Below, piece after piece: positions 28,678-37,237 of a DNA stretch of 41,876 nt. The DNA lies in IMG/VR virus record IMGVR_UViG_3300046003_004184, positions 1-41,876 of that record, one strand, 5' to 3'. Every line of letters begins with the position of its first letter. Position 1 is the stretch's first letter. This stretch comes from a virus. The notes beneath the pieces were generated by a model. The model was not told the DNA's origin and searched no databases. It saw only the letters and a list, made by a program, of their open reading frames with translations. A program made the translations under genes and the position numbers.

Positions 28678-29020
28678 AAAAGACGCTTACACGCTATCAG
28701 ATATGCTCGTTGACATTTATGTCTTTATCAATGCACACGCCAGATATTACATCGGAGCGGTAATTGGTATGTTAATTGACAAAAAGGGTTGGACAAACGG
28801 AAAGCAGGTTATAAAGCATTTACTTGTTGTTTTGATGTTGGCTTATCTATCAGTCGAGATAATGAAAGCAGGCGGTTTGCCAGAACACGTTATCCTATTA
28901 ATTGCGTCTATCGTTGGATTTACTGGACATTCAACGGCACGCTATGCGACAGATGATGCGTTACCTAGAATACTGAAAGCAATCACTGATAAAATAATTG
29001 ACATAATCGGTAAAAAATAA
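28670..29020 (+). CDS. Holin, 116 aa
   Basis: Start taken as the ATG at 28670 that overlaps the endolysin stop (a TTG lies one codon before). Hydrophobic segments near residues 12-32, 47-65 and 74-92 (VIKHLLVVLMLAYLSVEIM, HVILLIASIVGFTGHS) and a charged C-terminus (ILKAITDKIIDIIGKK) give a three-helix holin-like plan. It should permeabilise the inner membrane to release the endolysin. A terminator follows directly. Confidence 0.7.
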   Translation: MNEKDAYTLSDMLVDIYVFINAHARYYIGAVIGMLIDKKGWTNGKQVIKHLLVVLMLAYLSVEIMKAGGLPEHVILLIASIVGFTGHSTARYATDDALPRILKAITDKIIDIIGKK

Positions 29021-29036
29021 GATACTTCTCACACGA

Positions 29037-29079
29037 ACCCCACAAGCCTCTTAATATGCTCAAATCGTGGGGTCTTTTT
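29037..29079 (+). terminator. Terminator after lysis genes
   Basis: ACCCCAC (29037-29043) pairs with GTGGGGT (29067-29073) over a 23-base loop, followed by CTTTTTT. It ends the late transcript before the tad2 gene. Confidence 0.7.
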
Positions 29080-29096: not shown

Positions 29097-29594
29097 ATGA
29101 CTGAATTGCTAACTTACATTGGCACTAAAGTTATCAATGCCAAACCAATGAATCGACAAGAATATAATGATTTTAGAGGCTGGACATTACCTGCTGATGA
29201 AGATGGTAATGATGAAGGATACCTTGTAGAGTATCTTGACGGCGGTAAAAACACCGAACAATATGAAGGCTACATTTCTTGGAGTCCTAAAAAACAATTT
29301 GAAGATGCGTATAAACCGACATCAGGGTTGTCTTTTGGATTAGCCATTGAGGCAATGAAAAAAGGTTTAAAAGTCGCTCGCAGTGGTTGGAACGGCAAGG
29401 GAATGTTTTTATATTATGTTCCTGAAAATTCATATCCAGCATCACGCAATACTCTTAATACAATGGCAGGAATATTTCCTGATGATTTAGTGCCTTATCA
29501 AGCATATATTGCTATGAAAACCGTGCAAAACACAGTTGTTCCTTGGCTTGCATCGCAAACCGATGTGTTAGCTGATGATTGGATTATTGTTTAA
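29097..29594 (+). CDS. tad2: Thoeris anti-defence protein Tad2-like (DUF2829)
   Basis: 165 aa; GGAGAGAAT before the ATG fixes the start. Residues about 77-165 (LSFGLAIEAMKKGLKVARSGWNGKGMFLYYVP ... TVVPWLASQTDVLADDWIIV) show the full DUF2829/Tad2 signature, including the SGWNGKGM core and the closing WLASQTDVLADDW. Residues 1-72 form a second small domain (GYISWSPKKQFEDAY) often fused to it in phages. Tad2 proteins sequester the signal molecule of Thoeris defence. The gene stands alone between two terminators, facing an Acb2/Tad1-like gene. The fold is certain enough; the ligand is not. Confidence 0.85.
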   Translation: MTELLTYIGTKVINAKPMNRQEYNDFRGWTLPADEDGNDEGYLVEYLDGGKNTEQYEGYISWSPKKQFEDAYKPTSGLSFGLAIEAMKKGLKVARSGWNGKGMFLYYVPENSYPASRNTLNTMAGIFPDDLVPYQAYIAMKTVQNTVVPWLASQTDVLADDWIIV

Positions 29595-29601
29595 GTAAAA
29601 T

Positions 29602-29638
29602 ACCCCCCACGAGTTAAACTGCTAGGGGGTTATTTTTT
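29602..29638. terminator. Terminator between tad2 and Acb2-like gene
   Basis: ACCCCC (29602-29607) pairs with GGGGGT (29625-29630), then TATTTTTTTAT on the plus strand. It terminates tad2 and could also stop the convergent minus operon. Confidence 0.7.
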
Positions 29639-29662
29639 TATCATTAGATGCTGGCGTATCGC

Positions 29663-29899
29663 TTAAGAGTTTGATGCATCTAGTTGAGAAAGAAGAGCTT
29701 CATTAAGCCACAAAAATCCTTGCTGAATATTTGTCTTAGCCAAAGCAGTTGCTCTTTTGTCAATTTTAAAAAGCTCTTCTTTCTCAAGAAATTCTATCCG
29801 CTGAAGTGCAAGTTCTAAAATCTCTCTGTTTTGGCGAATAATTGGGATAAAAAATTTTTCATTTTTAGAAGATTCTTCTGGTTTGGTGTTTTCAGTCAT
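29663..29899 (-). CDS. Acb2/Tad1-type hairpin protein, probable cyclic-nucleotide sponge
   Basis: 78 aa, helical. Residues 49-69 (RATALAKTNIQQGFLWLNEAL, shown here in part) fit the family signature of Acb2/Tad1 hairpin proteins, a helix of the form 'A.AkT.iQqGF..L.rA', preceded by one long helix (residues 21-45). Family members such as Acb2 bind CBASS cyclic di- and trinucleotides and Tad1 binds gcADPR, blocking abortive defence. It lies head-to-head in 3' orientation with tad2. Short acidic N- and C-terminal tails. Family call is by pattern and could be wrong; the ligand is unknown. Confidence 0.6.
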   Translation of the reverse strand: MTENTKPEESSKNEKFFIPIIRQNREILELALQRIEFLEKEELFKIDKRATALAKTNIQQGFLWLNEALLSQLDASNS

Positions 29900-29922: not shown

Positions 29923-29998
29923 GAGGGGCGGTAGGATTCGAACCTACATTCCAGACGCACTTATTGCGAATAGTTCCTAACCCTTAGAAGACACCCCC
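29923..29998 (-). tRNA. tRNA-like gene with aberrant anticodon arm
   Basis: On the minus strand a 7-bp acceptor (GGGGGTG at 29998-29992 with CGCCCCT at 29930-29924, two G-U pairs), a 3-4 bp D stem with GG in the loop, and a perfect T arm GTAGG-TTCGAAT-CCTAC (29947-29931) are present. Overall 76 nt without encoded CCA. The anticodon arm does not fold canonically: the best choice, loop TTCGCAA (anticodon CGC, Ala), needs a bulged A in the stem. Either a divergent tRNA or a decaying pseudogene. Confidence 0.5.
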
Positions 29999-30616: not shown

Positions 30617-31225
30617 TTATGCAATCGAATTTAAAAATGTTGACAATTCTTGCGTGATTAAAGATTTAAAGAAAACCTCTGAATCGGCACGGATATTTGG
30701 AAAGTCTGAATATCCTACGTTTGATAATTCTTTGGCTACTTTCTCAATAAATTCTATTTCTGTAGCATCAGTACCAGCACGGATAAAGTGAATATATTGA
30801 CGCTTTTGTGTATCTGCTAATTCAGTGAGAAGCTTACGAGTTTCGTCCTTATCTTGATTATCTCCGTCTGTTAAAACAAAAATAAGGCTTGGATTGTTGT
30901 GGTCAACTTTATCAGAAAGACCCTTAATCGCTTCTGCGTAAGCAGTACCACCGCCTGCACGATAATTTTTAGCAATAAAATCAGAAATATTTTCAGTAAC
31001 TGTCAATGTGTTTACTTGTGTTGCATTTGCATTAAATCCAATAGTTTCAACAGTGCCGTCATCATCAACTGCCTTAGCAAACTCTTGAATGTAAGAAACC
31101 AATTTTGCAACAATGCCGTCTCTAAATTCATTTTCCATAGAGCCAGAGCAATCAATGGCAAATGCCACGTCTAAAGCGATTGGTTTTTTAACGTCAGCAT
31201 CAAGTAAAATTTGTTGTAAAGTCAT
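30617..31225 (-). CDS. TerF-like von Willebrand factor A domain protein, 202 aa
   Basis: Start set by AAGGATAACAAA before ATG. The whole protein is a VWA domain with an intact metal site: Asp25-x-Ser27-x-Ser29 (AIDCSGSM), Thr94 (GGGTAYAEAI) and Asp120 (VLTDGDNQD). The segment FAKAVDDDGTVETIGFNANA and the closing FFKSLITQELSTFL resemble the TerF/TerY type of VWA protein found in tellurite/stress and phage-inhibition loci. Such domains bind partner proteins through a metal ion. First gene of an operon with two small membrane proteins. Function in the phage is unknown; it may interfere with or mimic a host VWA system. Confidence 0.8.
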   Translation of the reverse strand: MTLQQILLDADVKKPIALDVAFAIDCSGSMENEFRDGIVAKLVSYIQEFAKAVDDDGTVETIGFNANATQVNTLTVTENISDFIAKNYRAGGGTAYAEAIKGLSDKVDHNNPSLIFVLTDGDNQDKDETRKLLTELADTQKRQYIHFIRAGTDATEIEFIEKVAKELSNVGYSDFPNIRADSEVFFKSLITQELSTFLNSIA

Positions 31226-31270
31226 TTTGTTATCCTTGTAAATTGTTACATCACTCACTGTGATAAATAT

Positions 31271-36613: not shown

Positions 36614-36800
36614 ACCATATCTTAACATCGTGGATTTGAAAACAATACACGAGGCAACAATCAACATATCGGCTACTGGTTGCCTAACCATTAACCAGTT
36701 GCGAAACCATATTAGAGAGCTTGAAAAATCTCTATTGGAATTGGAATATATAAATAGAACTGTAACGCAAGAAATTAAAGAGCAAAGGGGTTTAGAATGA
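36594..36800 (+). CDS. Hypothetical protein, 68 aa
   Basis: Overlaps the HTH gene by 20 bp and the DUF262 gene by ATGA. Short helical protein (CLTINQLRNHIRELEKSLLELEYINRTVTQEIKEQ) likely to form a coiled-coil dimer. Function unknown. Confidence 0.5.
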   Translation: MNIKIHEPYLNIVDLKTIHEATINISATGCLTINQLRNHIRELEKSLLELEYINRTVTQEIKEQRGLE

Positions 36801-37237
36801 TACCGCCAAAGGTTAACTTGGGACAACATTATAATTACACAGTAGGGCATTTTACAAATCCTAAGTTCAATTATTTTAATTTTAAATTGCCTGATTTTCA
36901 GCGTCCGCTTGTCTGGACGCAAGGGCAAAAGATAAGGTTAATTGAGTCGCTATTGGTTGGAATACCGATTGGCACTTACACAGTAAACGAATCAGACAAT
37001 CCTGCTTTGGATAGGTTGTTAATTGACGGACAACAGCGTGTTAATGCCATAAAGGAATACGTGAACAATGAATTTAAAGTGTATGGTTTGTTTTATTCAG
37101 AGGTTACCGATAGAAAATTCCACAACTGTCAATTCCCTTGTTATGTCACACAAAGCGACGATATAGAATATCTGAAAAACTATTACAACCTTATGAACTT
37201 CAGCGGAACAGCACATAAAGAGGAGGAGCGAGCATGA
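36797..37237 (+). CDS. DUF262-only protein, 146 aa
   Basis: Shows the DUF262 (GmrSD N-terminal, ParB-like) core: FQRPLVWTQGQKIRLIESLLVGIPIGTY (about residues 34-61) and the nucleotide-binding LLIDGQQRVNAIKEY (about 74-88). Normal GmrS/BrxU-type enzymes are far larger and add an HNH nuclease; here the protein stops after the first domain. It may hydrolyse or bind NTP, or act as a truncated mimic of a host DUF262 restriction enzyme. Sits in a small operon behind an HTH regulator. Confidence 0.75.
   Translation: MIPPKVNLGQHYNYTVGHFTNPKFNYFNFKLPDFQRPLVWTQGQKIRLIESLLVGIPIGTYTVNESDNPALDRLLIDGQQRVNAIKEYVNNEFKVYGLFYSEVTDRKFHNCQFPCYVTQSDDIEYLKNYYNLMNFSGTAHKEEERA

Follow-up and report, generated by a model that had tools for sequence, protein, structure and literature searches.

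A divergent Acb2/Tad1-hairpin protein beside Tad2 and an orphan abiF RNA in a probable viral counter-defence segment

Introduction

Is the small helical protein encoded beside a Tad2 gene in IMG/VR record IMGVR_UViG_3300046003_004184 a second nucleotide sponge, and do the two genes belong to an anti-defence island? Tad2 is an anti-Thoeris sponge for gcADPR/cyclic dinucleotides. A sequence-only reading of the record had proposed that the neighbouring 78-aa protein is an Acb2/Tad1-type sponge, encoded back-to-back with Tad2, and that the pair defines such an island. These proposals were followed up computationally within the whole stretch of DNA analysed (the window, 41,876 bases) and by comparison with other viral, plasmid and bacterial sequences.

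Organisation of the locus

Terminase, portal and tail genes lie on the plus strand of the window, and a long block of small genes occupies the minus strand, with the 78-aa gene at the downstream end of that minus-strand cluster (Table 1). The spacing given earlier was reproduced, as 68 bp separate the Tad2 stop at 29594 from the stop codon of the 78-aa ORF. The genes are on opposite strands, as had been stated, but they are not back-to-back; they converge tail-to-tail, with a terminator-like fold between them.

Several other features of the region were recorded. Directly 5' of the 78-aa ORF is a degenerate tRNA-like element, missed by ARAGORN, which may be what is left of an attachment site or else a phage tRNA in decay; in the contig with the closest Tad2 (L007) a good tRNA lies 128 nt from Tad2. 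The same minus-strand cluster encodes a TerF-like protein with a von Willebrand A domain, the PHROG of which is a group of unknown function. Elsewhere, a 146-aa protein corresponds to the N-terminal part only of GmrSD/DUF262; it has a counterpart of 65% identity in a second phage contig, L096, and might interfere with GmrSD-type restriction.

Table 1. Positions of the features discussed, in window coordinates
Feature	Position	Strand	Details
Sigma-70-like promoter TTGACA-17-GATACT	28998..29026	+	directly 5' of abiF RNA; suggestive only
Orphan abiF RNA (RF03085)	29038..29073	+	Rfam covariance model, 43.6 bits (gathering score 37), E 1.5e-5
Tad2 gene	29097..29594	+	~80-aa N-terminal phage domain and C-terminal Tad2 domain
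Terminator-like hairpin	29595..29640		separates the two convergent genes; 29590-29645 folds at -14.8 kcal/mol, z -2.5
78-aa divergent Acb2/Tad1-hairpin protein	29663..29899	-	helices predicted 12-40, 48-77; Pfam, phmmer, profile, AlphaFold2
Degenerate tRNA-like element	29923..29998	-	Rfam tRNA 30.5 bits, gathering score 29
TerF-like protein	30617..31258	-	PF10138, E 5e-18
146-aa partial GmrSD/DUF262 protein	36797..37237	+	PF03235, E 1e-17

Family membership of the 78-aa protein

The product of the minus-strand ORF (MTENTKPEESSKNEKFFIPIIRQNREILELALQRIEFLEKEELFKIDKRATALAKTNIQQGFLWLNEALLSQLDASNS) contains the motif A.AKT.IQQGF..L..AL, which had been described as typical of Acb2/Tad1 hairpins, in the form ALAKTNIQQGFLWLNEAL. 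A profile search with the hairpin model, put forward as a check on that assignment, gave a match that falls short of the curated threshold: when 24,736 families were scanned independently, Pfam PF24729 (Acb2/Tad1 hairpin) matched the protein at E 3.6e-5, yet its score of 24.3 bits lies below the gathering score of 27, so that automatic annotation would miss the protein. The alignment spans residues 41-68 only, corresponding to the second helix.

Direct sequence comparison points to the same family. A phmmer search of 13,811 ORFs returned five phage proteins that resemble Acb2, with E-values from 2.7e-6 to 6e-3, headed by L005 (E 2.7e-6) and by an Acb2-like protein of Pseudomonas phage 5400 (E 2.4e-5), which itself matches Acb2 8h2j/8ixz at E 7.6e-14; against PF24729, four of the five partners score 53-67 bits and the fifth 26.7. 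A six-protein profile built without the query recovered the 78-aa protein from 27,112 ORFs at E 1.1e-7. An expanded profile of 92 homologues, again without the query, gave it 40.6 bits (E 4.7e-10, 27,112 ORFs), a score slightly favoured by the partial use of a query-derived motif in gathering the homologues, from which the Pfam result is independent. The best of 2,000 shuffled copies reached 10.3 bits.

Close relatives were absent from the viral, phage, plasmid and genome collections searched. An NCBIfam search returned nothing, a single-sequence phmmer search of the PDB gave no match, and PHROGs offered only phrog_717, at 0.065. In the sister virus records the contigs stop short of this region. 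One distant match is annotated as an "Rz-like spanin"; the same match is "hypothetical" in other phages, and the 78-aa protein shows no membrane or lipoprotein feature, so this function was rejected. The 78-aa protein is a real, divergent member of the Acb2/Tad1-hairpin superfamily. What stands of the earlier assignment is therefore superfamily membership, on the strength of Pfam, phmmer and profile results, and not a sponge with the known binding mode of Acb2 or Tad1.

The coding sequence has some features of its own. It contains a perfect 17-bp inverted repeat (29684-29700 and 29771-29787, 70 nt apart) that forms a long stem in the mRNA, the overall fold of which is ordinary (z -1.5). Matches to MIR319 at 29686-29785 were discarded as a chance product of this repeat. 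No strong Shine-Dalgarno sequence is visible for the ORF.

Tad2 and its association with hairpin genes

The neighbouring gene is a clear Tad2, as had been claimed, with matches to PF11195 (E 9.1e-26, 90.6 bits against a cut-off of 25), PHROG 872 (E 2e-67) and the PDB Tad2 chains 9eib and 8v3e (E ~2e-22). Its start was taken as the ATG at 29097, the mechanical ORF opening at a GTG at 29067. Compared with Tad2 of known structure (9eib, 8v3e, 8sme/8smf), the window protein has an extra N-terminal domain of ~80 aa (PHROG 9467/872), and the Tad2 fold is unrelated to that of the 78-aa protein.

Among Tad2 loci on viral contigs, a PF24729-type gene lies within ~6 kb of Tad2 in four of 80 (L016, L026, L031 and L075, with L026 and L031 being near copies), while none of 111 loci anchored on other hairpin genes contains Tad2. 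The pairing is repeated, yet it is no general rule. Two sponges within one phage are already known, as SPO1 has Tad2 and Acb4 (PMC11722364). Co-location of hairpin and Tad2 genes consequently speaks weakly for an anti-defence island in general, and in the present window the idea is better supported by the orphan abiF RNA directly 5' of Tad2.

In L016 (5522-5755), L031 (5766-6002) and L026 (5481-6002), the PF24729 hairpin gene is directly before Tad2 on the same strand and its product has another N-terminus, FGE[KR]AVGLTFNP. These proteins are possibly a separate sponge subfamily. A possible new domain fusion was also seen in L120 (4701-5198), where a longer open frame of 166 residues ends in the hairpin domain.

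Predicted structure and ligand-binding residues

AlphaFold2, run on the single chain without ligand and with a 15-row alignment, predicted two long antiparallel helices with a pLDDT of 87, in accord with the paired helices expected from the sequence, and modelled residues 1-11 as disordered. Foldseek placed Tad1 chains second and third and Acb2 8h2x fourteenth among PDB matches, while in BFVD a phage protein annotated as an Acb2/Tad1 hairpin came second; neither database gave a match at E<0.001. A two-helix hairpin is generic and too simple for the fold alone to settle the family.

Acb2 proteins (8h2j/8h2x of Pseudomonas phage p26 and T4 Vs.4, 7uq2), which as hexamers bind cyclic di- and trinucleotides, are also small, all-helical and phage-encoded, and have in common with the 78-aa protein the long antiparallel helices and the pattern R...AKT.IQ.G..W in helix 2, although the hairpin loop is shorter in the 78-aa protein than in 8h2j. 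Tad1 (7uav, 8smd, 8kbb) shares its C-terminal two-helix hairpin with Acb2 and is related to the 78-aa model with Foldseek probabilities of 0.41-0.51. The N-terminal antiparallel beta-sheet of Tad1 is absent from the 78-aa protein, for which no strand is predicted, and because this beta domain is lacking the protein is not Tad1.

All six residues that are most conserved in the family (R49, A54, T56, Q59, G61 and W64) are kept; A54, Q59 and W64 are identical in 17 of 17 alignment rows, and R49 and T56 are conserved in at least 90% of them. The N-terminus differs, since that of Acb2 reads H-K-K-I-x-G-Y-R-D-L, whereas the 78-aa protein has neither the GY segment nor any tyrosine. Y11 and K26 of 8h2j are assumed here to line the dinucleotide pocket of Acb2, and R67 the trinucleotide pocket. 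R67 corresponds to R49, whereas K26 is missing, the aligned residue being E26 or I27 according to gap placement. Since R25 is only one or two residues away from where the lysine was lost, the reading of a lost lid is not certain. By alignment, Y11 of 8h2j equals Y8 of T4 Acb2, which has no counterpart in the 78-aa protein, and T68 of T4 is the threonine of AKT and hence T56 (the T4 chain numbering is shifted by one in the alignment, presumably by a tag). The Y8A change leaves T4 Acb2 deficient in binding, and T68M lowers its affinity (PMC12657230).

From this pattern we infer a putative lid-less nucleotide sponge with an altered ligand range. Canonical cyclic dinucleotides would be expected to bind weakly, because the lid tyrosine and lysine are lost while the arginine and threonine of helix 2 are kept. 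The ligand might then be bound by the helix bundle itself, the first candidate being cyclic trinucleotides, or it might be a different signal. The Acb2 tyrosine is present in 11 of 16 aligned homologues and missing in L006, L016, L031, L117 and L120, and because of these five, hairpins that are lid-less or otherwise lidded are a wider phenomenon.

It is rather unlikely that the protein is a functional canonical Acb2 for both cyclic di- and trinucleotides, with F16/F17 and R25 taking the place of the lid tyrosine and lysine. Such a protein would fit the family homology found by Pfam, phmmer and profile, the hairpin register between the start of helix 1 and the AKT motif, which differs little from that seen in Acb2-like phage proteins, and the aromatic and basic residues near the lost positions; absence of the GY lid is, moreover, not peculiar to this protein, given the five homologues above. 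Against it, Y8A alone abolishes function in T4 (PMC12657230), and here the whole GYR segment is missing from an N-terminus modelled as disordered. Retention of the hairpin fold for a role other than as a sponge, for example in assembly, host take-over or binding of a phage-protein partner, is an unlikely explanation. Divergent hairpins with other N-termini, none of which has an assigned function, occur in L016 and L031 (FGEKAVGLTFNPSG), L075 is a hairpin of 50 aa without a lid and the hairpin of L120 ends a longer protein, all of which would be compatible with such a role; the position of the gene next to Tad2 and the abiF RNA argues otherwise, as does the retention of conserved R49 and of T56, the counterpart of the T4 residue at which T68M lowers binding. 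That the gene is a decaying or unexpressed remnant is very improbable, for all that it has no close homologue, no copy in the related L096 phage, a weak ribosome-binding site and a perfect inverted repeat, as the open frame is intact and decay would not favour retention of all six conserved residues.

The abiF RNA upstream of Tad2

The abiF RNA ends 23 nt before the Tad2 ATG. Its stem, CCCCAC/GTGGGG, is followed by TCTTTTTT and there is a T-run after the stem. The promoter-like site upstream is only suggestive because such sites are expected by chance (6 TTGACA-17-GATACT-like sites found in the scan versus 4.8 expected). A profile search of the whole window for the AbiF toxin gene (PF07751) gave no match.

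The closest described system is the AbiF type III toxin-antitoxin RNA RCd22 of C. difficile phi027 (PMC12373285), which has the same 36-37-nt motif, stem and single-stranded CAAAUC bulge, and likewise a terminator-like 3' end and a position just 5' of a gene. Unlike RCd22, the window RNA has no AbiF gene, one copy of the motif rather than two, and Tad2 downstream. The orphan abiF sRNA of cyanophage S-CREM1 (PMC9964418) also occurs without AbiF, inside an array of tRNAs and ncRNAs, and its report draws no link to Tad2 or to a decoy function.

The unit of abiF RNA and Tad2 is also present in the L096 phage (1380-1840, minus strand), where the Tad2 domain is 82% identical to that of the window and the terminase 48%; the hairpin gene was not detected in this phage. 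Between the two leaders an A-T pair is replaced by T-A on both sides of the stem in conserved surroundings, a compensatory change.

abiF RNAs in other phages and plasmids

A motif pattern scan found the abiF RNA in 28 viral contigs (L089-L116), and BLAST added named phages, including Acj61, CRP-143, Thibault and other mycobacteriophages, Aeromonas T7-like phages, Salicola CGphi29 and the cyanophages S-SZBM1 and S-CREM1. The RNA is carried by Thibault-related mycobacteriophages, T7-like Aeromonas and Roseobacter phages, cyanophages and a T4-like Acinetobacter phage. PF07751 was absent from all 37 phage records with the RNA, namely the window, the 28 contigs and eight named phages (L229, L230 and L239-L244), some of the contigs being fragments. 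With the same search, AbiF was found directly downstream of the RNA in three of four plasmids (E ~1e-52 or better), the fourth having an IS6 transposase there instead. The covariance model confirmed the RNA in the plasmids, the eight named phages, L096 and eight of ten further contigs scanned. Pairing in the variable stem was assessed for 25 distinct viral motifs, 18 of which form a helix of four or more pairs there; 5,000 re-pairings gave 7.6 such motifs on average and never more than 14. This test allows one bulged base and was refined after a first, bulge-free count proved uninformative.

Phage copies are often close to tRNA genes. Of 29 distinct phage abiF RNAs, 13 have a tRNA or tmRNA within 500 nt, in every case on the same strand, compared with three of 80 Tad2 anchors and none of 111 hairpin anchors, and the same proximity is seen in Thibault, S-SZBM1 and S-CREM1. 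In L090 (7820-8219), L104 (2255-2654) and L110 (5209-5613) the RNA adjoins or overlaps the predicted end of a phage tmRNA, which in L090 and L104 is of the permuted form by Rfam; the tmRNA tag is ANDDVYTEDFALAA in L090 and L104 and AANDDVYTEDFALAA in L110. A Legionella plasmid with both abiF RNA and AbiF additionally has a RAGATH-13 ribozyme-like RNA (L231, 1117-1211, minus strand; 76.1 bits, gathering score 80). In bacteria, the exact abiF pattern was found in none of 398 genomes of a single phylum, and Rfam was applied to four large genomes with 150 of ~2,000 candidates scored in each, neither being a gauge of bacterial frequency; E. coli genomes gave no abiF RNA match.

The C. difficile abiF RNA acts in trans to neutralise AbiF, an effect that is lost with changes that break the stem but not with compensatory ones (PMC12373285). 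AbiF is the proposed ancestor of Cas13 (PMC12373285); Cas13a, which descends from the AbiF line, is reported to cleave tRNA anticodons (PMC11042736), and tRNAs encoded by phages are reported to be able to evade defences that cut tRNA (PMC11555353). The occurrence of phage copies in tRNA/tmRNA clusters suggests that phages may carry the antitoxin RNA as an AbiF-neutralising decoy. The abiF sRNA of S-CREM1 has been reported previously with its role unconfirmed (PMC9964418, PMC12197685), and no proposal of a decoy role for phage abiF RNA was found in the literature searched. Lactococcus phage sk1 is reported to protect against AbiF, going by a title cited in PMC12737573; Rfam found no abiF RNA in sk1, which has two tRNAs. 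Alternatively, the RNA could serve as a leader controlling Tad2, or it could have been left behind by an AbiF module since lost, although its spread over unrelated phages and its tRNA association argue against a simple relic.

Discussion

The explanation favoured here, at a probability of roughly 0.55, is that the 78-aa protein is a divergent, lid-less hairpin sponge and that the 1-kb segment is most likely a compact counter-defence cluster. The protein would oligomerise via its hairpins, as its relatives do, and sequester the nucleotide second messenger of a CBASS- or Thoeris-like abortive-infection system of the host, with the result that the host effector would not be activated. Tad2 and the abiF RNA form a late-side unit that meets the 78-aa gene tail to tail, and the orphan RNA would probably act as a decoy for a host AbiF RNase toxin. 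The segment does resemble a counter-defence cluster, more through Tad2 and the orphan abiF RNA than through the hairpin gene.

A broader proposal, which is tentative and for which the chances are put at somewhat below even, is that the cluster mixes protein sponges with an RNA decoy. The abiF RNA, equipped with a promoter-like site and a terminator of its own, would neutralise AbiF in trans, the downstream Tad2 and the lid-less hairpin sponge would disarm nucleotide-signalling defences, and orphan abiF RNAs in general would represent a widespread class of counter-defence elements.

If the lid-less hairpin still sequesters signals, it would reveal the half of the Acb2 fold that is responsible for the trinucleotide site, and the search for sponges would widen to proteins below present Pfam cut-offs. 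If the decoy proposal is true, orphan abiF RNAs would make up a class of RNA-based counter-defence that is widespread in phages and often moves in tRNA/tmRNA clusters, and the phages that carry the RNA only, with its structure conserved and beside Tad2 or in tRNA/tmRNA arrays, would provide a simple RNA-only anti-AbiF mechanism.
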